Assembly (NCBI GenBank): GCA_027923505.1
Contig: BROI01000033.1
Span: forward strand, 214,136-278,135
From: Mayamaea pseudoterrestris
Lineage: Eukaryota; Bacillariophyta; Bacillariophyceae; Sellaphorales; Sellaphoraceae
Direction: 5' to 3'
Length of the DNA stretch: 64,000 bases
Shown here: positions 12,563 to 45,171 of the stretch, piece after piece
How the letters are laid out: every line of letters starts with the position of its first letter
How positions within the stretch are numbered: position 1 is the first letter of the stretch
Notes under the pieces: model-generated
What the model was told of the DNA's origin: nothing
Databases searched by the model: none
What the model saw: only the letters and a program-made list of their open reading frames with translations
Program-made: the position numbers and the translations under genes

Positions 12563-15362
12563 CTATGACTTTCCGTTCCATCTGTTCCGACCGAAATTGC
12601 ACAGCCGACGAACAAGACCTTGACTTGTATCGTCTGGGTCCTTATTGTCGTGGATGACATCGCCGCTGATAATCGGCTCGGTCGGAGACAAGGTTTGTCC
12701 AATGCTGTACGGCTCAATGGACGCAATTAAGGGGAACTCGACTGGACCTGCGTTCACCACGCGGACAACGTTACCGTTACCGGGCGTTTCGATGACCATA
12801 TACAAAGGTCGTGCCGATCCATCTTCTGAGTAAACATGAACAGATTGTTTTGAATTTGTTGGACCTTGCATCAACTCTATCGTTGCGTTAATCGGAAGGC
12901 CGTCTGTCCGCAAAAGCACCTGGACACTTTCGACCGACGCATCAAATGCATACGTCTTGAGAGCGCCGCCGTGAACCGTCTTTGCGCCGGTCTCAAAGTT
13001 AGACGACGCAGCCGACGGGAGTGCAGTGGCGACTCGTTCGTCTTCCTCCGCAACAATGTTGGCCGCCAATGGAAATTCGAGCAGACCAGAATTGCGAACC
13101 GAGACAGTATTGGGACCAATTGGTGTTTCAAAGACGGCGGAGAACGGCCGCTCATGTCCGTTTTCGCAGTATACTCTCATTTTGAACGGAACGTCATCAG
13201 GGCCACGCCAAAGATTCAACTCCGCATTCAAGGGTCGACCGCCAGTCTTTAACGCCACGTGAATACGCTCAATCGCGTGATTTTTGAACGACCAAGTTTT
13301 TAGAGAGCCGCCTTGTACGGGCGACGCCTCGGTCATGTCCGAAATAAGTGCTGCAGGAGCCTTGTGAGCTCGAGTCACTTCTCTTTCTAATAAAGGGCGG
13401 ACTTGTTTTCGCTCGTGGTAGTTTTTGGCAAGCGTCTCAATGGCTTGCGAGCGACGGACACTAGCCTCATGCGCCCGCTTGGCTCTATCCGCATTCCCTT
13501 GCAGCAGAGAATTAAAGCGGTCCTCGAAGCGTCGTCGCTGAGTCTGTAAAAATGCGAGAAGGAAAAAATGAGTGAGCGTGGAAAACTCGTTGCACGATCA
13601 AAGGTGCACATATACTCACAGTTTGCCTCGATGCTTCCATTTCCCGCGCCATATTGTGATCGTTGGTGGAGATTGTCACATCGTAATCACCGCTACTCGA
13701 GGATGCAATCACGTCGCTTCGCTGGTCTTCTCGCATGGGAATGTTTCCAAAGACTTCGGTCCGAGGTATGTAGCGAATGCCGGCGCTGTCCGACAATTCC
13801 GGCGCTCCGCCACCGCCATAGTACGATGACTGTTTAGTTCGTTGCAATGGTGCCGATGACATTGTTCGAACATCATTTCGAGGCGGTGCTCGTGTATCAC
13901 CTGGCATGGTCCGTGCCATTGGAGCAGGTTTGGTCGGTTTCACAAGTCTCGTTGCTTCAATAATCGGCTCGATTGCAATATCTCCGTCATCCGTTTCAAT
14001 ATACGGCAATGGCATAGGCGGAGCAGGAAACATGCCCGTGACTGGTGCCTGTCGTGAGTACTTGACTGCCTTTACTGCGAGTTCACTCTTTTCGGGTGCC
14101 TTGTACGGCATGGGAATGGGTGGAGCTGGAAATTTATTAACACTTGAAACTCTTGTACTCGTCGTTGGAGCTTTATATTGTGTGTCAAGTCTTTTAGATT
14201 GGAATGGTACTGGCCGGGCTGGGAAAGATGTTGCCGACGAAACTGGAATATCCTTAACGGAGTTAAACTTGATGCTATTGCCGTCGGCCAAAGAAGATTT
14301 CTTTTCACCATTCGAATTTTTAGACAGTGCTTGGTAAGTGGCGTCTCCTTCAGAAAGACGCGATACGCCATAATCGTCAATAGGTTTGCTCACGGGCTGT
14401 GGCGAATTTGACTTTGATGCAATGCTTCGTGACAAGTTTTGTTGCAGCGACTCGAAAGATTGTCGTGGCGCACTGCTGCTGCTAGCTGACGAAAATTTCG
14501 TCCGCGACTTTGCTTCTGATTCACTTTTGCTAGCTGCTTGAGAACGCGACGGTGTTTCCGTCGAAGGTCGAGTTGACTGTGTCGGTTCCGCTTGCTGCTT
14601 CACCCCAGCGAAAGTCGTTGGTTCGTGCGTTTGATGTTTCTCCTGCGGTGTCGCCGTCGAAAGCCCCGAAAGAAAGCCATTGAATCCACTATCCGCGACA
14701 GCCTTGTACTTTGTTCCGCCACTGGCTGGGCCATATGACTTCTTTGGAGTTGCAGTTGCAGCAGCACTTGAACCGGATGTACCTGACGATGACATGCTGC
14801 TAAAGTAATCTCCGGCTGAACCAATGGAAGCTGCTGCAGCGTTGGAGCTTTTAAAACCAGTCTCCTTTGGCCGATTTCGAGCTGTAGCAGATGATTCGCT
14901 AAACCTTGACGATCCTGTCATACCAGTAAAAGAGTCTCCAGCAGGCGATGCATCGGTTGCTGTGGCTCTCGACTCCAGTTGCGGGCGCTGCACCCTTGAT
15001 GTCGACGATGACGAAATGTCTCTGGCATCCAGTGAGTACTTTCTAGGATCCATCTTCGCCGCAGTCCTTTTGGTCTTGTCATATGGATTCTTGAGAATCT
15101 CGTCGTCGTCAAGCGGTCCCAAGTTCTCGTACATGCTCCAAAAGTCCGTCAGGTCGGATGTACCGGTAGAGGATGCAGGAGTCGCAATCGGCCTTGCTGT
15201 CGACGGAGGAGCAAGCGTCGCGGTTGCCTTGGTAGCTGTAGACGAAGACGACTTCTGCACTTGCTGGAGTTGATCCAAGTAGCTTCCAAAGGCTTCGCTT
15301 GTTCGAATGGCCCCGCTGGCAAGCAGCAAAAGTTGCAGCATGTTGCTAGAGACGCGCGTCAT
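12563..15362 (-). CDS. Plastid-targeted protein: disordered N-half plus two tandem beta-type domains (PyShell-like candidate)
   Basis: Inferred CDS is complement(join(12563..13543, 13621-adjacent 13620..15362)), 907 residues. One phase-0 intron (13544-13619, GTGAGT...ACAG) joins the frames. An upstream ATG at 15416 would add 18 residues before the signal peptide. The start MTRVSSNMLQLLLLASG... gives a signal peptide ending TSEA-FGSYLDQL, with Phe at +1 as for diatom plastid entry. Residues ~30-520 are Ser/Thr/Ala-rich and disordered. They hold one clear DYFSSMSSSG...KYKAV..SGF..FLSGLS unit (nt ~14685-14813), a weaker unit before it, and FPAPP[IM]P[ML]PY motifs. A basic helical segment follows (RRRFEDRFNSLLQGN). 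The two homologous ~90-residue domains then start GGSLKTWSF and GGALKTYAF, each with ...RPLNAEL/LPINATI..., E.G..RP, and ending EFPLAANI/EFPLIASI. Tandem domains of this kind recall diatom pyrenoid-shell proteins. That link is from memory and unverified; the gene model is firmer than the function. Confidence 0.8.
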
Positions 15363-21665: not shown

Positions 21666-24600
21666 TTATTTTACAAAGTCAAGTTTAGTGAAGCGAAAGG
21701 AGCCAGTCTGTATTCCAACGTACGGTGCAGGAGTGCCACCAGAGCAAATCCCTTTTGCAAAGTCAGGGGTAGTAGCGACAAGTTGGCCGTTGACGTACCA
21801 CTCCGCTCCTCGATTCGCACAGCGAATAATCGTCTTATCGCTTCGTCGAATCAATGTAGTGGTTTTAATCCTTTCAGTGTTTTCTGTCGAGTAAACTGTA
21901 ACCTCCACTGGTTGCTCAGGTCCGACAAATAAAGACCCTGCTATGTAGCCCTTATCCACAACAATGTTCCCCAAGAAGAAATCAGTGTCATACATAGTCC
22001 ATCCAAAATCGCCTGCAGCGTTTGGTTGCAGCTCAATCTCAAACGACTCAACGTTGAGAGTATGGCCTCCAAGACGCTGCAGCACTATCAGCTTGTCGTC
22101 CATGGCATGCGTGTTTTCAATCTCTGTGTGAAGTGAATAATCAACGAGTGTAGCACCCTGTAAGTCCTCGTCAACGACGTAGGGACAGAAACCTGACAGC
22201 TCATCGCTTCTGTCATGCTCAGGATCATTATTCTCCGTTTCTGTAAAGTCATCGTCGAGGCGAGAAAAGTCATTAACGTCAAGCTGAGGTGCATCAGACG
22301 TGGCCGAAGAATCAAACGCTTCGTAAATCGGCGTGTCGTAGTAATCGTTGAGAAACGGTGGCTCGTATGTTGGTGACGAGTCAATATTACCGTAGCTTTC
22401 TAGTGGCGGCCCAAAATGTTCGGAATGTTGGGGTTCGAACATTGCTGCTTCTCCGGAGTCACTGTAGCTCGTTGGAGCTGGATAGTTTGAAGTAGGATAT
22501 GGTGGCTCGAACGAATTTGCCTCAAATGCGCTGTAACTTGCAAGTGGCGGCCCGATTGTATCAAAATAAGGTGGTCCAGAGGACGAAACTGGCCCATTGA
22601 AATCACCAACGCTAGCCGATTGTTGATTGTTATGCAGAAAAAGCATTTCTTCGTCGTCGGCAGGCTCAGTAATCATGTGATTGTCGTCGTTGGCTACGAA
22701 TGGCCGCATCAACTCTTCATGTTCGAAAACCTCTGGCATCGCGCTAGCACGATAAGGTCGACTGAAAGTAGCTGCCTCTGTGACAGATCCATGATGACCT
22801 GCTGACGAAGGAGCTGATGGGGCCCACAGCGAGCCAAGGTATGCGTCATCTTTCACTGCCCTGTACGAAGCGCCGCCCGGTGCGTACGATTTTCTTGAAC
22901 CAGGAGAACTTTTTGCTGCATTTGAAGGAGAAGATAATCTCATTTGTGGTGCTTCAGCATCCTCTCGTTCTGCATTTGCTTGAAATTTCGGCGGCGACAT
23001 CGCAGATGACGACAGTCCATCAGGAAACACAGCCTCCTTGTTTTGTTTGTATTGGCTGTCACCGGGAGCGTATATTTCCGAAGAGCCCGAATTATTGGAA
23101 GTTCCGCTAGGTGCCGCAGCAAGGCTCGCAAGATAGCCAGTGTCTTTCGTCTGTGCGTACTTCATGCCAAATGGAGCGTGTGAATTTATCCGCCGCGCCA
23201 CCGACGACCCGGTCGAAAGTGAACTGAGATAATCTCCGGACGATGTGGTGGTTTCGGTTATTCTCTTTTGTTTATCGTAAGTATCTGATTCGGAGGAACT
23301 TGACGATGCAATGTCGACTTGAGGTGATCTTAACAAAGCACTAGTATAGCTATCGCCATGACTTGCCGAATTCTTCGATACAGACGAGCTGACATGACCC
23401 CCACGAGAAACGTCACTCAAAGGAACCGATGCAGACGATGAGAGTCCAGCGAGAAACCCCGTTTCCTCGACTCTTTTAAATTTAGCACCTCCAGGAGCAA
23501 ATGACTGCTTCGGGGGTAAGCTTGCTGCCGACATTGAGCTTAAGTAATCACTTGTTGTTGCAGATGAAGCACTTTGAGAGTTTATTGCTGAGTTGGCTTC
23601 TGTTGGAACAGACAAATACTCAGGCGCCGGAACAGATGTGGGCGACGACAAGCCTGCCAGAAATCCGGTGTCCCTGACTGGTTTATACTTGCCGCCACCA
23701 CCAGGAGCAAATGATTGCTTTGGTGTTGACGCCGATCTTTCTTTCGTCATGGCACTTAAATAGTCGCTTGTCGAGACAGCACGAGACGATGAACTGGAGT
23801 CCGGGCTGCTTGGACGGTAAATGGGTACCTTTGTTGATGAAGCTGTCGCATAGCTCCGCGATATCGATGAATCAGATACTGCGAATTCCTTGGCTCGTTG
23901 AATATTGTGGTCTCCGCCACCAGGAGCATAAGACTGCTGTCGTGTCGTCGAATCAGCAATATTTTGGCGAGATACAGTGCTTAAATAGGATGCGGCTTTT
24001 GTTGAAACCGTCGCTTTTGATCCGTTATGATTTGGGCTTGGAACGTTCGATTCATGTATTGTCGGAGGTGCTGCTGCCGATGATAAACTGGCCAGGAAAC
24101 CAGTCTCCTTTACCGGTTTGAACTTGCCGCCGCCAGGTGCATAAGACTGTTTCGTTGGCGTTCCTGATTTGTTGCTAGCCATGGCGCTCAAGTAGTCACT
24201 GCTTGACGAAGCTGCTGATACTCTTGCATTTTGACTTGATCGAAACGAGCCGTGATTTGACTCAGTTGACGGCTGGCTTGCCGTTGGAGCTGGCGAGTCG
24301 CTAGGCATTTGATTCGATGATGCTTCTGACAAACCTGCTAGAAATCCGGTTTCTTTTACAGGTTTCCACTTGCCTCCGCCACCAGGGGCAAAGGACTGCC
24401 TGATCTTTGAACCAGGTGAGGAAGATTGAACAGCAGCAGCTCCTTGCGCATCTGTTGATGAGAAATTGCTTACACCGTCGTGTGAGAGAACTGCTGAATC
24501 TCGTTCATTGACCAGATCATGAGCAGGTGGCGTTGATGATAAGCCTGCCAAGAATCCTGTCGCCTTAACTGGCATGAACCGTTTGCCTCCTCCGGGAGCA

Positions 24601-27581
24601 AAAGATTGTTTCGTTGTAAAAGTAGGGCTGGATGAAGTAGATTTCGTGTCGTGCTCTTTATTGGCGGACTCGGACGTCAAGCCGATTGATCGAGGTAAAC
24701 TTGATGCGTATGACCCAGACTCCTTAATAGGCTTCCACGTGCCGCCGCCGCCAGGAGCGTAATTTTGCTTTGGAACATTTGCCGCAACGCTCGACGTACC
24801 AGGCACGGAACTCTGAAAATCACCCGCTGATGAAGGAGCAGCGTCTGCCAAGCCTTTTGGTTGATAGTCACTGCTTTGTGGCTGACTGCGTGACCGAAAG
24901 TTGGGATCTGAAACTGCCGGATAGCTGGGTGCAGCCGTAGATGCTGCCGATGACAAACCGGCAAGAACCCCAGACTCCTTGACAGGTTTCCACTTGCCAC
25001 CGCCACCAGGAGCAAATGATTGCTTTGAACCCTTGAAAGCATCACCCGTTGCGCCAGACGATGACATGGAACTCAGGTAGTCGCCGGTGGATGCAGGAAC
25101 TGCTTTGCTTATCAAACCGCTCCGTTGCGGCGGATCCAGTGAAGATTTAAGTTCTGGAGCAGCGCTATTTTCTGGATTCTGTGCTGAAGCAACCGAAGAT
25201 AAGCCGGCAAGAAATCCAGACTCCTTGACAGGTTTCCACTTGCCACCGCCACCAGGAGCAAATGATTGCTTTGAAACCTTGGAAGCATCACCCGTTGCGC
25301 CAGACGATGACATGGAACTCAGGTAGTCACCGGTGGATGCAGGAACTGCTGTGCTTAACAAACCGCTCCGTTGCGGCAAATCCGGTGAAGATTTAAGTTC
25401 TGGAGCAGCGCTATTTTCTGGTTTCGGGACAGAAGAAGCTGCGGACGATAAACCAGCAAGAAATCCAGACTCCTTGACAGGTTTCCATTTGCCACCGCCA
25501 CCAGGAGCAAACGATTGTTTTGGAACCTTTGAAGAAACTGTCGCACCCGACATGGAACTCAAGTAGTCACCAGTTGATGCAGGAGCAGAGTTTGCCGAAC
25601 CAATTGGTTGCGAAGGAGGGCTTGGCTCTGGAGCAGCGCTATAAATTGGCTTTGGAGTAGAAGAAGCTGTGGATGATAAACCTGCAAGAAATCCAGATTC
25701 CTTGACGGGATTCCACTTGCCGCTGCCACCAGGAGCAAACGACTGTTTCGGAGCCTTTGAAGAACCTGTCGCACCCGACATGGAACTCAAGTAATCAATC
25801 GTTGATGCAGGAGCAGAGTTTGCCGAACCAATTGGTTGCGAAGGAGGGCTTGGTTCTGGAGCAGCGCTATAAACTGGTTTTGGAGTAGAAGAAGCTGTGG
25901 ACGATAAACCGGCAAGAAACCCAGATTCCTTAACAGGTTTCCACTTGCCACCACCACCAGGAGCAAAGGACTGTTTCGACAACTTTGAAGAATCTGTTGC
26001 ACCCGACATGGAACTCAAGTAGTCACCCGTCGATGCAGACGCAGCAGAGTTGGCTGCGCTACTCGTCTGATATGGGCTGTCGCTTTGCGGCAAGCTTGCA
26101 GGAACGCTTGGCCCACGAGCAGTTGGAGAAGCCGGCGCGCGATCATTAGACTCGTTGGACGATAAATAGGCAAGGAATCCAGTCTCCTTGACGGGTTTCC
26201 ACTTGCCACCAGGAGCGTACGACTGTTGTTTCGGAGCCTTTGAAGCTGACACACCCGACATGGCACTTAAATAATCGCTCGTCGATGCGGCAGCTGTTGA
26301 TTGTTGCGTGAATTCATTCGATTCGTCACGATCCGGCGACTTGTAGTAGCTCGGTGGTGCTGCAGGTGCAGATGAAGATTGGGGTGCAGCAGTGGCTTCT
26401 GTAATTGTATGCGAGGCTGACAGTCCCGCCAGAAATCCAGTCTCCTTGGCTTGCTTGAACTTGCTAGCGGGCGCGTACGATTTCTGCTTGCTGCCGCTGG
26501 CCGTTTGTCCCTTGGACATGCGACTCAAATAGTCCGTCGTTGACGCTGCAGCATTATCTGATGCTTGCTCTGAACTCGACGCAGCCGACTGCGACTTCCA
26601 TTTAGTTGCTCCTCCTGGTGCGTAGGAGGACTGCTTGCTGGTGTCGCTCATCGTTTGCGACGACGAAGAAGACGACGTTGATCCCTTGGACATGCGAGTC
26701 AAGTAGTCACTCGTGGATGCAGCACCGTTGGATGATTCATCAACCGTCGCCGCATTTTTGGAATCAAGCGAGAGGGACCGAGACGACGACGATGATTTCC
26801 AACTGCCTGGAGAGTAGGATTTTTGATTGCTGCTGGTGGAACTTGTCGAAGACGCCATTCGACTCAAGTAGTCGCTCGTCGAAGCAGCAGGCGCAGAATT
26901 TACGTCGTGACTCGTCGCTTGCTGTTCGTTTCCAGTGCGAGCCGACTCGGACGAACCTGCCGACTGCTTCCAACTGCTACTAGCTCCTGATCCAGGAGCG
27001 TAGCTATTCTTGCTCTTGCTGCTGCTACCCGTTGCTCTTTCGGCGCTTGGTCCAGCGCTAGACATGGACGACAAGTAGTCGGATGATGACGCAGCAGCTG
27101 TCGCTGTGGCTTTTGGTGCAGTCACTTTGGCATCCTTTGATTGAGAATTTGCCTTTGAACTCGTTCCATATGGAGCGTAGGAAACTTTCATTGTCGTCGT
27201 AGAGAGTTCTTGCTTGGACGAGGACGAAAGCGCCGACAAGTAGTCCATGGTTGATGCCGCTGCTGCTGTTGCTGCAGCTTCGTCTTTCGTCGCTGGCACT
27301 TCGGCGAATGAATGACGAGCCAATGGCAATCGTTCGTCGTCACGTTTCGAGCCGTCATGATGATGATGCTGTGACTTGGAAGCGCCAGATGCAGCAGGAG
27401 GAGCAGGAGCAAACGACGACGATTGACTGCTGCTGCGGCTTGCACTCGATTCCAATTGATTCAAGTAAGAATTGGAACCAAAGGCTGCCGCAGCTTGCTC
27501 CGAAGGCTTGACTTGTAGACATGCGACTAGCAGAATGCATAGCCATTGCCTTGGTGACTTTGAAAGGACTGCTGCTGTCAT
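21666..27581 (-). CDS. Giant plastid-targeted sticker-and-spacer repeat protein (candidate Rubisco/pyrenoid linker)
   Basis: 1971 residues from the ATG at 27581. An upstream in-frame ATG at 27686 would add 35 residues before the signal peptide. The start MTAAVLSKSPRQWLCILLVA... is a signal peptide ending AAAA-FGSNSYLNQLE, with Phe at +1 as in diatom plastid proteins. About 21 imperfect units of ~50-95 residues follow (nt ~22780-27250). The unit is [AS]STxDYLSSMS, a Ser/Ala spacer, then K-Q-S-[FY]-APGGGG-KWKPVKESGFLAGLSS. KW[KN]P occurs seven times (plus codes near 24361, 24983, 25230, 25485, 25706, 25938, 26196) and TWKP once. N-terminal units lack the second half; the central ones are near-identical. 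An acidic Pro/Tyr-rich region with GPPL.SY motifs precedes a ~150-residue globular domain ending FRFTKLDFVK. The layout suits a condensate scaffold. A silica-associated role is an alternative, but plastid targeting argues against it. Confidence 0.85.
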   Translation of the reverse strand: MTAAVLSKSPRQWLCILLVACLQVKPSEQAAAAFGSNSYLNQLESSASRSSSQSSSFAPAPPAASGASKSQHHHHDGSKRDDERLPLARHSFAEVPATKDEAAATAAAASTMDYLSALSSSSKQELSTTTMKVSYAPYGTSSKANSQSKDAKVTAPKATATAAASSSDYLSSMSSAGPSAERATGSSSKSKNSYAPGSGASSSWKQSAGSSESARTGNEQQATSHDVNSAPAASTSDYLSRMASSTSSTSSNQKSYSPGSWKSSSSSRSLSLDSKNAATVDESSNGAASTSDYLTRMSKGSTSSSSSSQTMSDTSKQSSYAPGGATKWKSQSAASSSEQASDNAAASTTDYLSRMSKGQTASGSKQKSYAPASKFKQAKETGFLAGLSASHTITEATAAPQSSSAPAAPPSYYKSPDRDESNEFTQQSTAAASTSDYLSAMSGVSASKAPKQQSYAPGGKWKPVKETGFLAYLSSNESNDRAPASPTARGPSVPASLPQSDSPYQTSSAANSAASASTGDYLSSMSGATDSSKLSKQSFAPGGGGKWKPVKESGFLAGLSSTASSTPKPVYSAAPEPSPPSQPIGSANSAPASTIDYLSSMSGATGSSKAPKQSFAPGGSGKWNPVKESGFLAGLSSTASSTPKPIYSAAPEPSPPSQPIGSANSAPASTGDYLSSMSGATVSSKVPKQSFAPGGGGKWKPVKESGFLAGLSSAASSVPKPENSAAPELKSSPDLPQRSGLLSTAVPASTGDYLSSMSSSGATGDASKVSKQSFAPGGGGKWKPVKESGFLAGLSSVASAQNPENSAAPELKSSLDPPQRSGLISKAVPASTGDYLSSMSSSGATGDAFKGSKQSFAPGGGGKWKPVKESGVLAGLSSAASTAAPSYPAVSDPNFRSRSQPQSSDYQPKGLADAAPSSAGDFQSSVPGTSSVAANVPKQNYAPGGGGTWKPIKESGSYASSLPRSIGLTSESANKEHDTKSTSSSPTFTTKQSFAPGGGKRFMPVKATGFLAGLSSTPPAHDLVNERDSAVLSHDGVSNFSSTDAQGAAAVQSSSPGSKIRQSFAPGGGGKWKPVKETGFLAGLSEASSNQMPSDSPAPTASQPSTESNHGSFRSSQNARVSAASSSSDYLSAMASNKSGTPTKQSYAPGGGKFKPVKETGFLASLSSAAAPPTIHESNVPSPNHNGSKATVSTKAASYLSTVSRQNIADSTTRQQSYAPGGGDHNIQRAKEFAVSDSSISRSYATASSTKVPIYRPSSPDSSSSSRAVSTSDYLSAMTKERSASTPKQSFAPGGGGKYKPVRDTGFLAGLSSPTSVPAPEYLSVPTEANSAINSQSASSATTSDYLSSMSAASLPPKQSFAPGGAKFKRVEETGFLAGLSSSASVPLSDVSRGGHVSSSVSKNSASHGDSYTSALLRSPQVDIASSSSSESDTYDKQKRITETTTSSGDYLSSLSTGSSVARRINSHAPFGMKYAQTKDTGYLASLAAAPSGTSNNSGSSEIYAPGDSQYKQNKEAVFPDGLSSSAMSPPKFQANAEREDAEAPQMRLSSPSNAAKSSPGSRKSYAPGGASYRAVKDDAYLGSLWAPSAPSSAGHHGSVTEAATFSRPYRASAMPEVFEHEELMRPFVANDDNHMITEPADDEEMLFLHNNQQSASVGDFNGPVSSSGPPYFDTIGPPLASYSAFEANSFEPPYPTSNYPAPTSYSDSGEAAMFEPQHSEHFGPPLESYGNIDSSPTYEPPFLNDYYDTPIYEAFDSSATSDAPQLDVNDFSRLDDDFTETENNDPEHDRSDELSGFCPYVVDEDLQGATLVDYSLHTEIENTHAMDDKLIVLQRLGGHTLNVESFEIELQPNAAGDFGWTMYDTDFFLGNIVVDKGYIAGSLFVGPEQPVEVTVYSTENTERIKTTTLIRRSDKTIIRCANRGAEWYVNGQLVATTPDFAKGICSGGTPAPYVGIQTGSFRFTKLDFVK
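25087..26060 (-). repeat. Near-identical tandem coding repeats (246-bp and 228-bp periods)
   Basis: Within the repeat protein, two neighbouring units at 25087 and 25333 are offset by 246 bp (82 codons). Two more at 25559 and 25787 are offset by 228 bp (76 codons). They differ by few bases, including at silent positions, so they arose by recent duplication or gene conversion. All periods are multiples of three. Confidence 0.85.
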
Positions 27582-31430: not shown

Positions 31431-34400
31431 CATTATTTTCCACTCAATAGCCATACCCATGGGCCAGCCAGCTTCAATATGAGTCTCTGCGGTTATTAGG
31501 CATGCATAAAGGATGTAGGATGTGCAATCCATTCAATGGTACACCATCAAACCCACCCAGCAATATGACCGGAGTTGGGTTGTGATGAATGGTGGCTGGT
31601 GGACCACATGGTTTTCAGTTTTTACACTCAATAGCCATACCCATGGGCCAGCCAGCTTCAATATGAGTCTCTGCGGTTACTAGGCATGCAAAAGGGAAGT
31701 TGAATGTGCAATCCATTTTATGGTACACCTTCAAACCCTCCAGCAAATTGACTGGGGTTGGGTTGTGTTGGATGGTGGCTGGTGGACCACATGGTTTTCA
31801 GTTATTACACTCAATAGCCATACCCATTTGCCAGCCAGCTTCAATATGAGTCTCTGCGGTTATTAGGCATGCATTAAAGATGATTAATGTGCAATCCAAT
31901 CAATGGTACACCTTCGAACCCTCCAGCAAAATGACCGGGGTTGCGATGTGTTGAATGGTGGCTGGTGGACCACATAATTTTCAGTTTTTACAATCAATAG
32001 CCATACCCATGGGCCAGCCAGCTTCAATATGAGACTCTGCGGTTATTAGGCATGTATTAAGGATGTAGGATGTGCAATTCAATTGATGGTGTTCTTCCAA
32101 ACCCTCCAGCAAAATGACCGGAGTTGGGTTGTGTTGAATGGTGGCTGGTGGACCACATGGTTTTCAGTTTCTACACTCAATAGCCAAACCCATGGGCCAG
32201 CAGCTTCAATATGAGTCTCTGCGGTTATTAGGCATGTATTAAGGATGTAGGATGGGCAATTCAATCAATGGTGTTATCCCAAACCCTCGAGCAAAATGAC
32301 CGGTGTTGCGATGTGTTGGATAGTGGCTGGTGAACCATATGGTTTTCAGTTTTTACACTCAATAGCTAACCCACGGGCCAGCCAGCTTCAATATGAGTCT
32401 CTGCGGCGATTAGGCATGCATAAAGGATGAAGGATGTAGGATGTGCAATCCATTCAATGGTACACCCTCAAACCCAAAAGCAAAATGACTGGGGTTGGGT
32501 TGTGATGGATGGTGGCTGTTGGACCACATGGTTTTCAATTTTTACACTCGATAGCCATACCCATGGGCCAGCCAGCTTCAATATGAGTCTCTGCGTTTAT
32601 TAGGCATGCATTAAGGATGTAGGATGTGCAATCCATTCAATGGTACACCTTCAAACCCTCCAGCAAAATGACCGGGGTTGGGTTGTGTTGGTGGTGGTTG
32701 GTGGACCACATGATTTCCAGTTTTTACACTCAATAGCCATATCCACAGGCCAGCCAGCTTCAATATGAGTCTCTGCGGTTATAAAGGCATGCATTAAGAA
32801 TGTAGGATGTGCAATCCGTTCAATGATACACCCTCAAACCCTCCAGCAAATTGACCGGGGTTGGGTTGTGTTGGATGGTGGCTGGTGAACCATATGGTTT
32901 TCAGTTTTTATACTCAATAGCTAACCCACGGGCCAGCCAGCTTCAATATGAGTCTCTGCGGTGATTAGGCATGCATAAAGGATGTAGGATGTAGGATGTG
33001 CAATCCATTCAATGGTACACCCTCAAACCCTCCAGCAAAATGACCGGGGTTGGGTTGTGTTGGATGGTGGCTGGTGGACCACATGGTTTTCAGTTTTTAC
33101 ACTCAATAGCCATACCCATTTGCCAGCCAGCTTCAATATGAGTCTCTGCGGTTATTAGGCATGCATAAAGATTTTATGATGCGCAAACAATTCAATGGTA
33201 CACCTTCGAACCCTCCAGTAAATTGACCGGGGTTGTGTTGTGTTGAATGGTGGCTGGTGGACCGTTTGGTTTTCAGTTTTTACACTCAATAGCCATACCC
33301 ATTTGCCAGCCAGCTTCAATATGAGTCTCTGCGGTTATTAGGCATACATGAAGGATGTAGGATGTGCAATCCATTCAATGGTACACCCTCAAACCCTCCA
33401 GCAAAATGACCGGGGTCGGGTTGTGACAAGTGGCTGTTGGACCACATGGTTTTCAGTTATTACACTCAATAGCCATATTCATTTGCCAGCCAGCTTCAAT
33501 ATGAGTCTCTGCGGTTATTAGGCATGCGTTTAGGATGTAGGATGTGTAATCCATTCAACAGTACATCTTCAAACCCTCCAGCAAAATGACCGGGGTTGGG
33601 TTGTGTTGAATGGTGGCTGGTGGACCACATGGTTCTTCAGTTTTTACACTCAATAGCCATACCCACTTGCCAGCCAGCTTCAATATGAGTCTCTGCGGTT
33701 ATTAGGCATGCATAAAGGATGAAGTATTTGCAAATCAATCAATGGTGTTGCAAAATGATCGGAGTTGGGTTGTGATGAATGGTGGCTGGTTGACCACATG
33801 GTTTTCAGTTTTTACACTCAATAGCCATACCCATGGGCCAGCCAGCTTCAGTATGAGTCTCTGCGGTTAATAGGTATGCATAAAGGATGTAGGATGTGCA
33901 ATCCATTCAATGGTACACCTTCAATTCTCCAGTAAAATGACCGGGGTTGGGTTGTGTTGGATGGTGGCTGGTGGACCACATGGTTTTCAGTTATTACACT
34001 CAATAGCCATACCCATTTGCCAGCCTGCTTCAATATGAGTCTCTGCAGTTATAAGGCATGCATTAAAGATGGTTGATGTGCAATCCATTCAATGGTAAAC
34101 CTTCGAACCCTCCAGCAAAATGACCGGGGTTGCGATGTGTTGAATGGTGGCTGGTGGACCATATGGTTTTCAGTTTTTACACTCAATAGCTAACCCACAG
34201 GCCAGCCAGCTTCAATATGAGTCTCTGCGGTGATTAGGCATGCATAAAGGATGTAGGATGTGCAATCCATTCAATAGTACACCATCAAACCCTCCAGCAA
34301 AATGACTGGGGTTGGGTTGTGATGGAAGGTGGCTGTTGGACCACATGGTTTTCAGTTTTTACACTCGATAGCCATACCCATGGGCCAGCCAGCTTCAATG

Positions 34401-36910
34401 TGAGTCTCTGCGGTTATTAGGCATGCATTAAGAATTTATGATGCGCAATCCATTCAATGGTACACCTTCAAACCCTCCAGTAAATTGACCGGGGTTGTGT
34501 TGTGTTGGATGGTGGCTGGTGGCTGGTGGACCGTTTGGTTTTTCTTACACTCAATAGCCATACCCATTTGCCAGCCAGCTTCAGTATGAGTCTCTGCGGT
34601 TATTAGGCGTGCATTAAGGATGTAGGATGTGCAATCCAGTCAATGGTACACCCTCAAACACTCCAGCAAAATGACCGGGGTTGGGTTGTGTTGAATGGTG
34701 GCTGGTGGACCACATGGTTATCAGTTTTTACACTCACAGTCAATAGCCATATCCACGGGCCAGCCAGCTTCAATATGAGTCTCTATGGTTATAAAGGCAT
34801 GCATTAAGAATGTAGGATGTGCAATCCATTCAATGGTGTTATCCCAAATCCTCGAGCAAAATGACTGGTGTTGCGATGTGTTGGATGGTGGCTGGTGAAC
34901 CATATGGTTTTCAGTTTTTACACTCAATAGCTAACCCACGGGCCAGCCAGCTTCAATATGAGTCTCTGCGGTTATTAGGCATGTATTAAGGATGTAGGAT
35001 GGGCAATTCAATCAATGGTGTTGGTGGCTGGTGGACCATATGGTTTTCAGTTTTTACACTCAATAGCTAACCCACAGGCCAGCCAGCTTCAATATGAGTC
35101 TCTGCGGTGATTAGGCATGCATAAAGGATGTAGGATGTGCAATCCATTCAATAGTACACCATCAAACCCTCCAGCAAAATGACTGGGGTTGGGTTGTGAT
35201 GGAAGGTGGCTGTTGGACCACATGGTTTTCAGTTTTTACACTCGATAGCCATACCCATGGGCCAGCCAGCTTCAATGTGAGTCTCTGCGGTTATTAGGCA
35301 TGCATTAAGAATTTATGATGCGCAATCCATTCAATGGTACACCTTCAAACCCTCCAGTAAATTGACCGGGGTTGTGTTGTGTTGGATGGTGGCTGGTGGC
35401 TGGTGGACCGTTTGGTTTTTCTTACACTCAATAGCCATACCCATTTGCCAGCCAGCTTCAGTATGAGTCTCTGCGGTTATTAGGCGTGCATTAAGGATGT
35501 AGGATGTGCAATCCAGTCAATGGTACACCCTCAAACACTCCAGCAAAATGACCGGGGTTGGGTTGTGTTGAATGGTGGCTGGTGGACCACATGGTTATCA
35601 GTTTTTACACTCACAGTCAATAGCCATATCCACGGGCCAGCCAGCTTCAATATGAGTCTCTATGGTTATAAAGGCATGCATTAAGAATGTAGGATGTGCA
35701 ATCCATTCAATGGTGTTATCCCAAATCCTCGAGCAAAATGACTGGTGTTGCGATGTGTTGGATGGTGGCTGGTGAACCATATGGTTTTCAGTTTTTACAC
35801 TCAATAGCTAACCCACGGGCCAGCCAGCTTCAATATGAGTCTCTGCGGTTATTAGGCATGTATTAAGGATGTAGGATGGGCAATTCAATCAATGGTGTTA
35901 TCCCAAAAGGATGTAGGATGTAGGATGTAGGATGTGCAATCCATTCAATGGTACACCCTCAAATCCTCCAGCAAAATGACTGGGGTTGGGTTGTGATGGA
36001 TGGTGGCTGTTGGACAACATGGTTTTCAGTTTTTACACTCGATAGCCATACCCATGGGCCAGCCAGCTTCAATAAGAGTCTCTGCGGTTATTAGGCATGC
36101 ATTAAGAATTTATGATGCGCAATCCATTCAATGGTACACCTTCGAACCCTCCAGTAAATTGACTGGGGTTGTGTTGTGTTGGATGGTGGCTGGTGGACCG
36201 TTTGGTTTTCAGTTTTTACACTCAATAACCATACCCATTTGCCAGCCAGCTTCAATTTGAGTCTCTGCGGTTATTAGGCATGCATTAAGGATGTAGGATG
36301 TGCAATCCATTCAATGGTACGCCCTCAAACACTCCAGCAAAATGACCGGGGTTGGGTTGTGTTGAATGGTGGCTGGTGGACCACATGGTTATCAGTTTTT
36401 ACACTCAATAGCCGTATGCACGGGCCAGCCAGCTTCAATATGAGTCTCTGCGGTTATAAGGCATGCCTTAAGAATGTAGGATGTGCAATCCATTCAATGG
36501 TACACCCTCAAACCCTCCAGCAAAATGACCGGGGTTGGGTTGTGTTGGATGGTGGCTGGTGGACCACATGGGTTTCAGTTTTTACACTCAACAGCCATAT
36601 CCACGGGCCAGCCAGCTTCAAAAAGAGTCTCTGCGGTTATCAAGGCATGCATTAAGAATGTAGGATGTGCAATCCATTCAATGGTAAACCGTCAAACTTA
36701 CCAGCAATATGACCGGGGTTGGGTTGTGTTGGATGGTGACTGGTGGACCACATGGTTTTCAGTTTTTACACTCAATAGCCATACCCATTTGCCAACCAGC
36801 TTCAATAAGAGTCTCTGCAAATATTAGGCATGCATAAAGGATGTTGGATGTGCAATCCATTCAATGGTACACCTTCAAACCCTCCAGCAAAATGACTGTG
36901 GTTGGGTTGT
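31431..36910 (+). repeat. Satellite family B, plus orientation, ~183-bp monomer, about 30 copies
   Basis: The landmark ACTCAATAGCCATACCCAT recurs at 31442, 31626 and 31809, a period of 183-184 bp. Each monomer has CCCATGGG and GCATGC palindromes, TTCAATATGAGTCTCTGCGG and GGTTGGGTTGTGTTG. Copies differ by substitutions and small gaps. Open frames of 60-115 codons are by-products of the repeat. An identical 877-bp block is duplicated inside. Confidence 0.96.
34146..35899 (+). repeat. 877-bp tandem duplication within satellite B (two identical-looking copies)
   Basis: 34146-35022 and 35023-35899 match throughout by eye, including private variants: a doubled GGCTGG before GACCGTTTGG, CACTCACAGTCAATAGCC and CTCGAGCAAAATGACTGG. 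Each copy spans almost five monomers. Such identity means very recent duplication, or an assembly artefact. Confidence 0.88.
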
Positions 36911-39345
36911 ACAGATGCAATGACCTTCAAACGCCCCTACAGCAAGCCCTGTAGGTGCCCAAAATACACCAGAATGGTGTCAACATCATTATTCGGGCTG
37001 CGCTACAAGATGGTAGGCTTGGTTGGTGTCTCAGGGGATGACAATGTATCTGGTGACAACTTGTCACCATTCACAGCCCGCAGATGCTGTGACATTCAAA
37101 CGTCCCTACAGCAAGCCCTGTAGGTTCCTAAAATACACCAGAATGGTGCCAACATCATTATTCAGGCTGAGCGACAAGATGGTAGGCTTGGCTGGTGTCT
37201 CAGGGGATGGCAATGTATTTGGTGACAACTTGTCACCAGTCTCAGCCCGCAGATGCTGGACATTCAAACACCCCTACAGCAAGCCCTGTAGGTGCCCAAT
37301 ATACACCAGAATGGTGCCAACATCATTATTCAGGATGCGCTACAAGATGGTAGGCTTGGCTGGTGTCTCAGGGGATGGCAATGTATTTGGTGACAACTTG
37401 TCACCAGTCTCAGCCCGCAGATGCTGGACATTCAAACACCCCTACAGCAAGCCCTGTAGGTGCCCAAAATACACCAAAATGGTGCCAACATCATTATTCA
37501 GGCTGCGCTACAAGATGGTAGGCTTGGCTGGTGTCTCAGGGGATGGCAATGTATTTGGTGACAACTTGTCACCAGTCTCAGTCCGCAGATGCCGTGACAT
37601 TCAAACGCCCCTACAGCGAGCCCTGTAGGTACCTAAAATACACCAGAATGGTGCCAACATCATTATTCAGGCTGCGCTACAAGATGGTAGGCTTAGCGGG
37701 TGTCTCAGGGGATGGCAATGTATTTGGTGACAACTTGTCACCAGTCTCAGCCCGCAGATGCTGGACATTCAAACACCCCTACAGCAAGCCCTGTAGGTGC
37801 CCAAAATACACCAGAATGGTGCCAACATCATTATTCAGGCTGCGCTACAAGATGGTAGGCTTGGCTGGTGTCTCAGGGGATGGCAATGTATTTGGTGACA
37901 ACTTGTCACCAGTCTCAGCCCGCAGATGCCGTGACATTCAAACGCCACTACAGCAAGCCCTGTAGGTGCCCAAAATACACAAGAATGGTGCCAACATCAT
38001 TATTCAGGATGCGCAACAAGATGGTAGGCTTGGCTGGTGTCTCAGGGGATGGCAATGTATTTGGTGACAACTTGTCACCAGTCTCAGCCCGCAGATGCCG
38101 TGACATTCAAACGCCCCTACAGCAAGCCCTGTAGGTGCCCCAAATACACCAGAATGGTGCCAACATCCTTATTCAGGCTGCGCTACAAGATGGTAGGCTT
38201 GACTAGTGTCTCAGGGGATGGCAATGTATTTGGTGACAACTTGTCACCAGTCTAAGCCCGCTGATGTTGTGACATTCAAACGCCCCTACAGCAAGCCCTG
38301 TAGGTGCCCAAAATACACCAGAATGGTGCGAACATCATTATTCAGGCTGCGCTACAAGATGGTAGGCTTGGCTGGTGTCTCAGGGGATGGCAATGTATTT
38401 GGTGACAACTTGTCACCAGTCTCAGCCCGCAGATGCCGTGACATTCAAACGCCCCTACAGCAAGCCCTGTAAGTTCCCAAAATACACCAGAATGGTGCCA
38501 ACATCATTATTCAGGCTGCGCTACAAGATGGTAGGCTTGGCTGGTGTCTCAGGGGATGGCAATGTATTTGGTGACAACTTGTCACCAGTCTCAGCCCGCA
38601 GATGCCTTGACATTCAAACGCCCCTACAGCAAGCCCTGTAGGTGCCCAATATATACCAGAATGGTGCCAACATCATTATTCAGGATGCGCTACAAGATGG
38701 TAGGCTTAGCTGGTGTCTCAGGGGATGGCAATGTATTTAGTGACAACTTGTCACCAGTCTCAGCCTGCAGATGCCGTGACATTCAAACGCCCCTACAGCA
38801 AGCCCTGTAGGTGCCCAAAATACACCAGAATGGTGCCAACATCATTATTCAGGCTGCTCTACAAGATGGTAGGCTTGGCTGGTGTCTCAGGGGATGGCAA
38901 TGTATTTGGTGACAACTTGTCACCAGTCTCAGCCCACAGATGCCGTGACATTCAAACGCCCCTACAGCAAGCCCTATAGGTGCCCAAAATACACCAGAAT
39001 GATGCCTACATCATTATATAGGCTGCGCTACAAGATGGTAGGCTGGGCTGGTGTCTCAGGGGATGGCAATGTATTTGGTGACAACTTATCACCAGTCTCA
39101 GCCCGCAGATGTTGTGACATTCAAATTCCCCTTCAGCAAGCCCTGTAGGTGCCAAAAATACACCAGAATGGTGCCTACATCATTATTTAGGCTGCGCTAC
39201 AAGATGGTAGGCTTGGATGGTGTCTCAGGGGATGGCAATGTATTTGGTGACAACTTGTCACCAGTCTCAGCCTGCAGATGCTGTGAGATTCAAACGCCCC
39301 TACAGCAAGCCCTGTAGGTGCCCGAAATACACCAGAATGGTGCCA
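36911..39345 (+). repeat. Satellite family C, plus orientation, 169-bp monomer, ~14 copies
   Basis: Period is exactly 169 bp; the same phase recurs at 37868, 38037, 38206, 38375, 38544, 38713, 38882 and 39051. Each monomer contains CCTACAGcaagccCTGTAGG, CACCAGaaTGGTG and TGGTGACAACTTGTCACCA. The left join to B is at GGTTGGGTTGT|ACAGATGC; the right join to inverted B is at GGTGCCAA|CTCATATTG. Because 169 = 1 mod 3, an 88-codon frame reappears in every copy; it is not a gene. Confidence 0.97.
37220..37316 (+). other. Representative satellite C monomer: three dyads
   Basis: In one typical monomer, TGGTGACAA-C-TTGTCACCA occupies 37220-37238 (9-bp arms, 19 bp total). CCTACAG-CAAGCC-CTGTAGG is at 37273-37292 (7-bp arms). 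CACCA-GAA-TGGTG is at 37304-37316 (5-bp arms). The same three recur in most copies. The first is the best preserved, even in degraded copies near 63 kb. Confidence 0.9.
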
Positions 39346-42300
39346 ACTCATATTGAAGGTGGCTGGCCCATGGGTATGGCAATTGAGTGTAAAAACTGAA
39401 AACCATGCGGTCCACCAGCCACCATTCAACACAACCCAACTCCGGTCATTTTACTGGAGGGTTTGTAGGTGTACCATTGAATGGATTGCACATCCATCAT
39501 CCTTAATGCATGCCTAATAACCACAGAGACTCATATTGAAGCTGGCTGGCCCATGGGTATGGCTATTGAGTGTAAACTGAAAACCATGTGGTCCACCAGC
39601 CGCCCTTCAACACAACCCAACCCCAGTCATTTTACTGGACGGTTTGAAGGTGTACCATTGAATGGATTGCACATACTACATCCTTAATGCATGCCTTATA
39701 ACCGCAGAGACTCATATTGAAGCTGGCTGGCCCGTGGGTATGGCTATTGAGTGTAAAAACTGAAAACCATGTGGTCCACCAGCCACCATTCAACACAACC
39801 CAACCCTGGTCATTTTGCTGGACAGTTTGAGGGTGTACCATTGAATGGATTGCACATCCATCATCCTTAATGCATGCCAAGTAACCGCAGTGACTCATAT
39901 TGAAGCTGGCTGGCCCATGGGTATGGCTATTGAGTGTAAACTGAAAACCATGTGGTCCACCAGCCACCCTTCAACACAACCCAACCCCAGTCATTTTACT
40001 GGACGGTTTGAAGGTGTACCATTGAATGGATTGCACATCCTACATCCTTAATGCATGCCTTATAACCGCAGAGACTCATATTGAAGCTGGCTGGTCCATG
40101 GGTATGGCTATTGAGTGTAAAAACTGAAAACCATGTGGTCCACCAGCCACCATTCAACACAACCCAACCCTGGTCATTTTGCCGGAGGGTTTGAGGGTGT
40201 ACCATTGAATGGATTGCACATTCATCATCCTTTATGCATGCCAAGTAACCGCAGTGACTCATATTGAAGCTGGCTGGCCCATGGGTATGGCGATTGAGTG
40301 TAAAAACTGAAAACCATGGGGTCCACCAGCCACCATTCAACACAACCAAACTCCAGTCATTTTGCTGGAGGGTTTAGTAGAACACCATTGATTGAAATGC
40401 CCATCCTACATCCTTAATACATGCCTAATAACCGCAGAGACTCATATTAAAGCTGCTGGCCCATGGATATGGCTATTGAGTGTAAAATCTGAAAACCATG
40501 TGGTCCACCAGCCACCACCAACACAACCCAACCCCAGTCATCTTGCTGGAGGGTTTGAAGGTGTATTATTGAATGGATTGCACATCCTACATCCTTAATG
40601 CATGCCCAATAACCGCAGAGACTCATATTGAAGCTGCTGGCCCATGGGTATGGCTATTGAGTGTAAAAACTGAAAACCATATGGTCCACCAGCCACCATT
40701 CAACACAACCCAACCCCAGTCATTTTACTGGACGAATTGAAGGTGTACCATTGAATGGATTGCACATCCTACATCCTTTATGCATACCTATTAACCGCAG
40801 AGACTCATATTGAAGCTGGCTGGCAAATGGGTATGGCTATTGAGTGTACAAACTGAAAACCATGTGGTCCAGCCACCATCCAACACAACCCAACCACGGT
40901 CATTTTGCTGGAGAGTTTGACGGTGTACCATTGAATGGATTGCACATCCATCATTCCTTATGCATGCCTAGTAACCGCAGAGACTCATATTGAAGCTGGC
41001 TGGCCCATGGGTATGGCGATTGAGTGTAAAAACTGAAAACCATGTGGTCCACCAGCCACCATTCAACACAACCCAACTATGGTCATTTTGCTGGAGGGTT
41101 TGGAAGAACACCATTAATTGAATTGCACATCCAACATCCTTAATGCATGCCCAATAACCGCAGAGACTCATATTGAAGCTGGCTGGCCCATGGGTATGGC
41201 TATTGAGTGTAAAAACTGAAAACCATGTGGTCCACCAGCCACCATTCAACACAACCCAACCCCAGTCATTTTACTGGACGAATTGAAGGTGTACCATTGA
41301 ATGGATTGCACATCCTACATCCTTTATGCATGCCTAATAACCGCAGAGACTCATATTGAAGCTGGCTGGCCCGTGGGTATGGCTATTGAGTGTAAAAACT
41401 GGAAATCATGTGATCCACCAATTACCACCAACACAACCCAACCCAACCCCAGTCATTTTGCTGGAGGGTTTGGAAGAACACCATTGAATGGATTGCACAT
41501 CCATCATCCGTTATGCATGCCTAGTAACCGCAGAGACTCATATTGAAGCTGGCTGGCCCATGGGTATGGCTATTGAGTGTAAACTGAAAACCATGTGGTC
41601 CACCAGCCACCATCCAACACATCGCAACCCCAGTCATTTTGCTAGAGGGTTCGAAGGTGTACCATTGAAAGGATTGCACATCAATCATCTTTAATGCATG
41701 CCTTATAACCGCAGAGACTCATATTGAAGCTGGCTGGCAAATGGGTATGGCTATTGAGTGTACAAACTGAAAACCATGTGGTCCACCAGCCACCATCCAA
41801 CACAACCCAACCCCAGTCAATTTGCTGGAGGGTTTGAAGGTGTACCATTAAATAAATTGCACAATTAACATCCCTTTTGCATGCCTAGTAACCGCAGAGA
41901 CTCATATTGAAGGTGGCTGGCCCATGGGTATGGCAATTGAGTGTAAAAACTGAAAACCATGTGGTCCACCAGCCACCATCAACACAACCCAACTCCGGTC
42001 ATTTTGTGGGAGCGTTTGAAAGAACACCATTGATTGATTTGCAGATCCTACATCCTTTATGCATTTCTAGTAACCGCAGAGACTCATATTGAAGCTGGCT
42101 GGCCCATGGGTATGGCTATTGAGTGTAAAAACTGAAAACCATGTGATCCACCAGCCACCGTTCAACACAACCCAACCCGGGTCATTTTGCTGGAGGGTTT
42201 GAGGGTGTACCATTAAATGGATTGCACATCCTACATCCTTAATGCATGCCTAATAACCGCAGAGACTCATATTGAAGCTGGCTGGCCCGTGGGTATGGCT

Positions 42301-42905
42301 ATTGAGTGTAAAACTGGAAACCATGTGGTCCACCAACCACCACCAACACAACCCAACCACGGTCATTTTGCTTGAGGGTTTGGAAGAACACCATTGAATG
42401 AATTGCACATCCATCATCCCTTATGCATGCCTAGTAAACCGCAGAGACTCATATTGAAGCTGGCTGGCCCAAGGGTATGGCTATTGAGTGTAAAAACTGA
42501 AAACCATGTGGTCCACCAGCCACCATTCAACACAACTCAACCCTGGTCATTTTGCTGGAGGGTTTGTAAGTGTACTATTGAATGGATTACACATCCTACA
42601 TCTCTTATGCATGCCTAGTATCCGCAGAGACTCATATTGAAGCGGGCTGGCCCATGGGTATGGCTATTGAGTGTAAAACTGAAAACCATGTGGTCCACCA
42701 GCCACCATTCAACACAACCCATTTTGCTGGAGGGTTTAAAAATTACCCATTGAATGGATTGCACATCCATCATCCTTAATGCATGCCTAATAACCGCAGA
42801 GACTCATATTGAAGCTGGCTGGTGAATGGGTATGGCTATTAAGTGTAAAACTGAAAACCATGTGGTCCACCAGCCACCATTCAAGACAACCCAACCCCGG
42901 TCATT
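39346..42905 (-). repeat. Satellite family B, inverted, about 19 copies
   Basis: The monomer is read in reverse complement of the 31-37 kb block (CCGCAGAGACTCATATTGAA, GGTATGGCTATTGAGTGTAA, ATGTGGTCCACCAGCCACCA). It begins mid-monomer after satellite C and ends at CGGTCATT|TAGGTGCCC, where C resumes in plus orientation. Some copies have short deletions (for example GTGTAAACTGAAAACC without the AA). Confidence 0.96.
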
Positions 42906-44197
42906 TAGGTGCCCAAATTACACCAGAATGGTGCCAACATCATTATTCAGGCTGCGCTACAAGATGGTAGGCTTGGCTGGTGTCTCAGGGGATGGCAATG
43001 TATTTGGTGACAACTTGTCACCAGTCTCAGCCCGCAGATGCCATGACATTCAAATGCCCCTACAGCAAGCCCTGTAGGTGCCCAAAATACACCAGAATGG
43101 TGCCAACATCATTATTCCGGCTGTGCTACAAGGTGGTAGGCTTGGCTGGTGTCTCAGGGGATTGTATTTGGTGACAACTTGTCACCAATCTCTGCCTGCA
43201 TATGCGAAGACATTCAAATGCCCCTACAGCAAGCCCTGTAGGTGCCCAAAATTCACCAGAATGGTGCCAACATCATTATTCAGGCGGCGCTACAAGATGG
43301 TAGGCTTGGCTGGTGTCTCAGGGGATGGCAATGTATTTGGTGACAACTTGTCACCAGTCTCAGCCCACAGATGCCGTGACATTCAAACGCACCTACAAGC
43401 AAGCCCTGTAGGTGCCTAAAATATACCAGAATGGATCCAACATCATTATTCAGGCTGCGCTACAAGATGGTAGGCTTGGCTGGTGTCTCAGGGGAAGGCA
43501 ATGTATTTGGTGATAACTTGTCACCAGTCTCAGCCTGCAGATGCTGTGACATAGGTGCCCAAATTACACCAGAATGGTGCCAACATCATTATTCAGGCTG
43601 CGCTACAAGATGGTAGGCTTGGCTGGTGTCTCAGGGGATGGCAATGTATTTGGTGACAACTTGTCACCAGTCTCAGCCCGCAGATGCCATGACATTCAAA
43701 TGCCCCTACAGCAAGCCCTGTAGGTGCCCAAAATACACCAGAATGGTGCCAACATCATTATTCCGGCTGTGCTACAAGGTGGTAGGCTTGGCTGGTGTCT
43801 CAGGGGATTGTATTTGGTGACAACTTGTCACCAATCTCTGCCTGCATATGCGAAGACATTCAAATGCCCCTACAGCAAGCCCTGTAGGTGCCCAAAATTC
43901 ACCAGAATGGTGCCAACATCATTATTCAGGCGGCGCTACAAGATGGTAGGCTTGGCTGGTGTCTCAGGGGATGGCAATGTATTTGGTGACAACTTGTCAC
44001 CAGTCTCAGCCCACAGATGCCGTGACATTCAAACGCACCTACAAGCAAGCCCTGTAGGTGCCTAAAATATACCAGAATGGATCCAACATCATTATTCAGG
44101 CTGCGCTACAAGATGGTAGGCTTGGCTGGTGTCTCAGGGGAAGGCAATGTATTTGGTGATAACTTGTCACCAGTCTCAGCCTGCAGATGCTGTGACA
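42906..44197 (+). repeat. Satellite family C, plus orientation, two 646-bp tandem copies
   Basis: The block is two apparently identical 646-bp units, 42906-43551 and 43552-44197. Each holds about four monomers, one shortened (GGGGATTGTATTTGG). It is a complete higher-order unit present exactly twice, bounded on both sides by inverted family B. Confidence 0.93.
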
Positions 44198-45171
44198 ACG
44201 GTGTACCATTCAATGGATTGCACATCTTGCAACCTTTATGCATGCCTAATATCCGCAGAGACTCATATTGAAGCTAACTGGCCCGTGGATATGGCTATTG
44301 AATGTAAAAACTGAAAATTATGTTGTCCACCAGCCACCACCTAACACAACCCAACCCCGGTCATTTTGCTGGAGGGTTTGTAGGTATACCATTGAATGCA
44401 TTGCACATCCTACATCCTTAATGCATGCCTAATAACCGCAGAGACTCATATTAAAGCTGCTGGCCCATGGGTATGGCTATTGAGTGTAAAAACTGAATAC
44501 CATGTGGTCCACCAGCCACCACCAACACAACCCAACCCCAGTCATTATGCTGGAGGGTTTAAGGGTGTACCATTGAATGGATTGCACATCCTACATCCTT
44601 AATGCATGCCTAATAATCGCAGAGACTCATATTGAAGCTGGCTGGCCCATGGGTATGGCTATTGAGTGTAAAAACTGAAAACCATGTGGTCCACCAGCCA
44701 CCACCCAACTCGGGTCACTTTGCTGGAGGGTTTGGAAGAACACCATTGATTGAATTGCACATCCTACATCCTGTATGCATACCTATTAACCGCAGAGACT
44801 CATATTGAAGCTGGCTGGCCCATGGGTATGGCTATTGAGTGTAAAAACTGAAAACCATGAGGTCCACCAGCCACCATTCAACACAACTCAATCCTCGTAA
44901 TTTTGCTGGAGGGTTTGAGGGTGTACCATTGAATACTATACACATCCTACATCCCTTATGCATGCCTAGTAACCGCAGAGACTCATATTGAAGCTGGCTG
45001 GCCCATGGGTATGGCTATTGAGTGTAAAAACTGAAAACCATGTGGTCCACCAGCCACCATCCATCACAACCCAACCCCAGTCATTTTGCTGGAGGGTTTG
45101 AGGGTGTACCATTAAATGGATTGCCCATCCTACATCCTTAATGCATGCCTAATAATCGCAGAGACTCATAT
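44198..45171 (-). repeat. Satellite family B, inverted, ~5 copies
   Basis: Same orientation as the 39-43 kb block. It joins C at TGTGACA|ACGGTGTACC and ends at GACTCATAT|CAGCCTGAAT, where C resumes but now on the minus strand. Confidence 0.95.

Follow-up and report, generated by a model that had tools for sequence, protein, structure and literature searches.

In the diatom Mayamaea pseudoterrestris, a giant disordered repeat protein and a predicted protein of the pyrenoid shell, encoded a few genes apart, carry the same three-part peptide module. The main finding to carry forward from the window (the whole stretch of 64,000 nucleotides analysed here, part of a genome of 30.6 Mb in 41 contigs) is this sharing of a module between linker and shell, and not the large protein on its own. 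Because the module is shared with a pyrenoid shell protein, the repeat protein probably helps to hold the carbon-fixing compartment together. We consider it probable that the protein is a scaffold of the diatom pyrenoid whose modules act as a common sticker, most likely binding Rubisco, and tie the matrix to the shell. The parts of this reading differ in strength. The architecture of the protein, the constraint on its module, the presence of that module in a predicted PyShell gene and the linkage to PyShell genes are observed. Judging by the sequence, residence in the plastid is close to certain and residence in the pyrenoid is very likely; Rubisco binding by the module is putative, with chances at or slightly above even, and the identity of the partner is a guess. 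The matter bears on the link between the Rubisco matrix and the protein shell of a diatom, and on whether a shared diatom pyrenoid sticker exists.

The repeat protein, 1971 amino acids long, is encoded by one uninterrupted frame, stop codon included, at 21666..27581 of the minus strand, with its ATG at 27581 and its stop at 21666-21668; the features described next lie on the same strand. Residues 1-34 (27480..27581) consist of MTAAVLSKSPRQWLCILLVACLQVKPSEQAAAA and the F that follows it, read by eye as a hydrophobic signal peptide with phenylalanine at +1. The likely cleavage site (SEQAAAA-F, the hyphen marking the cut) was judged by eye against the ASAFAP motif, which has F, W, Y or L at +1, and GSNSYLNQL comes directly after it. 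Next comes a disordered repeat region, residues 56-1590 (22812..27416), delimited by motif counts and AlphaFold2 (AF2), with 21 SYAPG-type anchors. These conform to [SN][YFH][AS]P and are spaced at a median of 76 residues (range 49-107), and the unit built around them reads DYLSxM ... K(K/Q)S[YF]APGG ... [ST]G[FY]LxxL. The module copies with KW[KN]P, exactly seven by motif count, all fall in a sub-block at residues 460-1075 (24357..26204); KWKS and TWKP occur once each. The region is basic (pI 9.43 for residues 34-1600) and is followed by an acidic stretch, recognized by composition, at residues 1600-1800 (22182..22784; net charge -35, pI 4.05). Taken over its full length, the protein has a slightly acidic pI of 6.39. 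The frame ends in an all-beta domain (21669..22181).

These elements—signal peptide ending AAAA-F, about 21 units, seven KW[KN]P motifs, acidic region and C-terminal domain—had all been named in a preliminary description of this DNA, and all are present. The disordered sticker-and-spacer design proposed there also holds: 91% of residues exceed the TOP-IDP threshold, the anchors recur about every 76 residues, and AF2 renders two of the units as disordered (pLDDT 54, pTM 0.13), with one short, low-confidence helix at each DYLSSM and none predicted at GFLAGL. Nor are the motifs a product of composition. In 1000 composition shuffles of residues 34-1600 for each motif, the maxima were 1 for KW[KN]P (7 observed), 3 for [SN][YF]AP[GYA] (19 observed), 1 for DYL..M (13 observed) and 1 for G[FY]LA.LS (11 observed). 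A Pfam scan of the protein returned one match, driven by composition, and no DiatomPyrShell domain (PF25192). At C22:350106-350327 (L025) the start of the gene recurs as a truncated copy, interrupted by stops, that begins at the same ATG and is 81% identical over 72 residues.

The C-terminal domain is predicted to fold confidently (pLDDT 83.9, pTM 0.81) and, from predicted structure and sequence comparison, resembles a SPRY/CBM66/galectin-like sandwich; Pfam has no match for it. The same domain occurs in two paralogues, C26a and C26b, and in members of a BTB_2 protein family: C26b and the two stand-alone genes that were scanned contain both it and BTB_2. Of these two domains the window protein has the C-terminal one only, and no BTB_2. 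The BTB_2-type family is itself expanded, with 18 loci besides C26b, C26a and the window gene, several of them bearing the beta-sandwich.

What has been conserved within the repeats is not what the preliminary description singled out. Aligned on SYAP alone, the 21 copies show three conserved blocks in a column scan—DYLSxM, K(K/Q)S[YF]AP(GG) and [ST]G[FY]LA(G/S)LS, the same as in the unit above—separated by variable spacers. Six close copies give pS 0.46 and pN 0.046 across the module, a pN/pS of 0.10, versus 0.94 for the 12 residues after it, and eight copies from the paralogue C1 (pS 0.64) give 0.16 in the module versus 0.78 in the residues that follow; a regular expression was used to select these copies, a choice that biases pN downwards, and the column scan is unaffected by this outside the SYAP anchor. 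The pS values of 0.46 and 0.64 indicate that the copies are old, and that selection, not recent amplification, maintains the module. Ten copies picked from another paralogue, C21, with pS 0.06, are recent or homogenized. As the alignments read, then, the conserved and selected unit is the three-part module DYLSxM - K(K/Q)S[YF]APGG - [ST]G[FY]LxxL, and the tryptophan is a local variant of it: W fills its column in 10 of 20 copies, the position being taken by P, F, M, Y or A in other rows, and no repeat unit of C1 or C21 has it, the entire proteins containing one and no tryptophan, respectively. The preliminary description thus had the class of protein right, and probably its location, but named the wrong residues, KWKP, as the sticker.

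A genome search yielded four relatives. C1 (C1:375k; P0002) begins with a coiled-coil-like segment, judged by eye, and continues with about ten units of the form GDYLSAMS...KKSYAPGGGSMKVVKESGYLGNL. C21 (C21:627-631k) is basic (pI 9.84), with units NYMASLGG...KKASYAPFQGVKPKAAQQTGYLSNL. C26a (C26:63.7-70.6k) has four units, and its copy of the C-terminal domain lies mid-chain. C26b (C26:9290-13726; P0003, L022) has at least 13 YSGFPGxxWSPG-like repeats and is of the plastid type; by eye, its WSP motif is nearer to the PYCO1 sticker than KWKP is. The module is common to the window protein, C1, C21, C26a and three environmental relatives (P0004, P0005 and P0006), and the family therefore extends beyond the M. 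pseudoterrestris genome. In P0006 an Ala-rich hydrophobic stretch, noted by eye, might serve as a membrane anchor. The last ~590 residues of C26a (L028) may be a FAD-oxidoreductase-like end: they match DAO weakly (E 0.1) and have no PDB sequence match. Next to the C1 repeat gene, and encoded on the other strand, is a hexapeptide-repeat gene (L023:4853-5923, minus strand); it looks gamma-carbonic-anhydrase-type, and its Pfam matches are to Hexapep-type families only.

The plastid targeting claimed at the outset finds support, by eye, in the protein and in its paralogues. Phenylalanine at +1 is described as crucial for diatom plastid import (PMC4329603). By eye, it directly follows the likely signal peptide in the window protein, in C26a and in C26b (SIEA-F, SSVG-F), and in C1 and C21 it stands no more than two residues from where cleavage is likely.

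The second protein of interest is encoded 6.3 kb from the repeat gene, with two other genes in between. Window positions 12563-13336 match PF25192, DiatomPyrShell, with an E of 9.2e-79, and the domain matches PDB entry 8wqp with an E of 1.7e-74. Directly upstream is a frame (13512-15362) that starts MTRVSS...SEA-FGSYLDQL and holds GDYFSSMSSS...KKSYGPASGGTKYKAVADSGFNGFLSGLS, one full module. A predicted intron, GTGAGT...ACAG, would join the two frames into a protein of 907 amino acids, from exon 1 (13620..15362, minus strand; signal peptide and long extension) and exon 2 (12563..13543, minus strand; PF25192 domain), the splice being predicted from sequence; exon 2 would then open with TQRRRFEDRF, which matches the QRRLEERLNQLE-like sequence opening the second exon of other shell genes. 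The single module in the extension, DYFSSMSSS...KKSYGPASGGTKYKAVADSGFNGFLSGLS, occupies 14658..14810 (minus strand). In other shell proteins the N-terminal SYL motifs described below might be lost with a cleaved transit peptide; this module lies ~185 residues from the N-terminus, and so the window copy is less exposed to that doubt.

Such proximity recurs. PF25192 finds 19 matches in the genome, which group into ~12 PyShell loci, and three of the five repeat-protein genes (the window gene, C21 and C26a) lie no more than 6.3 kb from one. C21 is divergent from a shell gene, with 555 bp between the ATGs, and so is C26a, with ~2.0 kb between the ATGs and, by eye, a proteasome-like frame in the interval. 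Under uniform placement the chance of three in five lying this close is about 4e-6, to be read with the fact that the pair in the window was noticed first, after the fact, and that the search then added two of the remaining four genes. Among 18 other BTB-domain loci, by distances read by hand, none comes that close to a PyShell locus, the nearest being ~41 kb away (3/5 versus 0/18, Fisher P 0.006). Neither C1 nor C26b has a shell locus close by, the distance for C26b being 36 kb. The pyrenoid role first proposed for the window protein thus gains from the module-bearing shell gene in the same window and from two paralogues linked to other shell genes.

Related motifs occur at the N-termini of some shell proteins. 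A DNA pattern for SYLSSLG, with the first serine as TCN only, has eight genome matches (five for the reversed control), and the three that truly read SYLSSLG, codons being read by eye, are all in shell genes, on C13, C21 and C26. Every one of the 14 genome matches to DYLS[SA]M[ST] (a pattern excluding AGY at the second serine; reversed control, one match) is in the window gene (nine) or C1 (five). PyShell first exons were read at eight of the ~12 loci: SYLSSLG is present in three, SSYLSDI in one and GSYLDQL plus the module at the window locus; two first exons are free of SYL-type motifs and one locus yielded no first exon.

Several other features were noted along the way. TGACG[TC] elements upstream of module and PyShell genes are ~2.5x denser than in eight control promoters, and are strongest at the C26 PyShell gene (four in tandem); the window repeat gene has one and C1 none. 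Window positions 31436-47301 and 52475-63302, near the end of contig C33, hold long satellite arrays whose units measure 183 bp and 169 bp, some of them oppositely oriented; TTAGGGTTAGGG does not occur in the window. Ten tandem 180-bp copies, 82% alike, occupy 969-2745.

Two features of the repeats recall PYCO1, the pyrenoid linker of Phaeodactylum tricornutum: the seven KW[KN]P motifs, and their setting in a disordered repeat protein. In PYCO1, KWSPRGGS binds the Rubisco small subunit, AAEWGSMNQ-type helices bind the large subunit and GTGYNP mediates self-association; the KWSP tryptophan is required (PMC10288592). Were the window protein a linker of this type, the KWKP tryptophans would be its small-subunit stickers, as had been supposed. 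We regard this as very unlikely. Tryptophan is kept in half of the aligned copies and in none of the C1 and C21 units, and it is better kept in C26b (YSGFPGxxWSPG). The GGS that cups the tryptophan of a neighbouring sticker comes after W in PYCO1 (PMC10288592), whereas the glycines of the present module precede it. KWSP itself is absent from the window protein, KWKP or KWNP standing there instead. Genome-wide, DNA patterns for KWSPRGG, the R form of the KWSPR/Q sticker, and for [DE]W[GA][ST]MN, representing the large-subunit helix [AS]EW[GA]SMN, have no matches, and GTGYNP has two, isolated and scattered, neither in the window gene nor in an array; by these exact patterns, the genome contains no recognizable PYCO1 array. 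In Phaeodactylum the small-subunit sticker is reported, among other proteins, only from the short PYCO1 isoform, and variants of the large-subunit helix are suggested as possible substitutes (PMC10288592). DYLSSM(S) is loosely like AAEWGSMNQ/ASEWASMNT in its acid, aromatic, Ser and Met, a likeness to be taken as a lead only.

The module might instead bind the PyShell lattice rather than Rubisco, the repeat proteins lining or cross-bracing the inner shell. The proximity of repeat genes to PyShell genes, and motifs common to repeat proteins and PyShell N-termini, would fit, but a motif within PyShell itself is more simply read as a docking site for some third component, the proposal made for Chlamydomonas (PMC10473226), and C1 and C26b are away from any shell locus. 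We think this arrangement rather unlikely, and grade PyShell as a direct, putative partner of the module no higher. Less likely again is a plastid scaffold with no part in carbon fixation, organizing thylakoids or an enzyme cluster, for example; the weak DAO match in C26a and the membrane-like stretch in P0006 point that way, and the predicted PyShell fusion and the PyShell linkage point away from it. A secreted protein of the silica or wall, as the signal peptide and the Ser- and Lys-rich disordered repeats could suggest, is highly improbable, given F at or beside +1 in the paralogues as in the protein itself, the module inside a predicted PyShell protein, and the lack of any Pfam match beyond the composition-driven one.

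The pyrenoid scaffold is our preferred reading. The window protein would reside in the plastid stroma, its long disordered chain displaying ~20 copies of the module, one per ~76 residues. The modules would bind a common pyrenoid partner weakly and multivalently, most likely Rubisco, and so cross-link the matrix. Through the single module of one PyShell protein, and through SYLSSLG in others, the shell would dock on that partner as well, whereas the acidic tail and the SPRY-like beta domain would have a different target. Several observations count against this scaffold: the slightly acidic protein as a whole, although its repeat region is basic; the failure of exact patterns to find the PYCO1 Rubisco stickers in the genome; the location of C1 and C26b away from shell loci and the motif-free first exons of two PyShell genes; the possible loss of N-terminal SYL motifs with the transit peptide; the two genes that separate the window pair, a linkage noticed after the fact; and, in the AF2 model, helices of low confidence at DYLSSM and none at GFLAGL.

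Diatoms might, further, have a universal pyrenoid sticker of their own, a YLxxL/M-centred family comprising SYLSSLG, DYLSSMS and G[FY]LxxL with its KxSYAP partner, multivalent in giant disordered linkers and single in PyShell. We put this tentative idea a little short of an even chance. If true, one Rubisco surface would organize both matrix and shell, PYCO1 would have been replaced in Mayamaea, and the arrangement would be analogous, by convergence, to the Rubisco-binding motif of Chlamydomonas. A review suggests that common Rubisco-binding motifs may apply widely to pyrenoids, with other sequences in each lineage (PMC10473226). A study of diatom bestrophins found that PtBST3 depends on a C-terminal region for its place in the pyrenoid, but could identify no motif there (PMC11142338). 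A text search of the literature for the motif strings returned the PYCO1 paper only; the repeat proteins may already stand in a diatom pyrenoid proteome. What emerges is a concrete and cheaply testable peptide motif, a set of genes for linkers and shell proteins that have it in common, and a warning against taking PYCO1 for the linker of diatoms in general.

Among known systems, PYCO1 is like the window protein in being a plastid-targeted, disordered diatom protein with aromatic stickers in tandem repeats, a basic repeat region and a repeat length of about 80 amino acids (about 76 here); the window protein differs in being ~3.3 times longer and in having a three-part module and a folded C-terminal domain. 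CsLinker of Chlorella, found by FLIPPer, is compared by description only. FLIPPer looks for disorder and for short structured elements repeated at 20-120 residue spacing (PMC11570498), and the window protein shows the disorder, and a spacing (median 76, range 49-107) within that range; its folded C-terminal domain sets it apart from CsLinker. CsoS2 and CcmN, which join Rubisco to the carboxysome shell, CsoS2 being disordered (PMC13159521), are bacterial and are alike by function only. Chlamydomonas uses a single Rubisco-binding motif that recurs along EPYC1 and is also found in proteins of the tubules and the sheath (PMC10473226). The logic is the same—a motif many times in a linker, and also in proteins of other pyrenoid sub-compartments—while the motif, the lineage and the Rubisco form differ, and Rubisco binding by the window protein is putative. 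Finally, the window protein lacks the domain of diatom PyShell (PF25192), but shares a gene neighbourhood with it, and one predicted PyShell protein carries its module.
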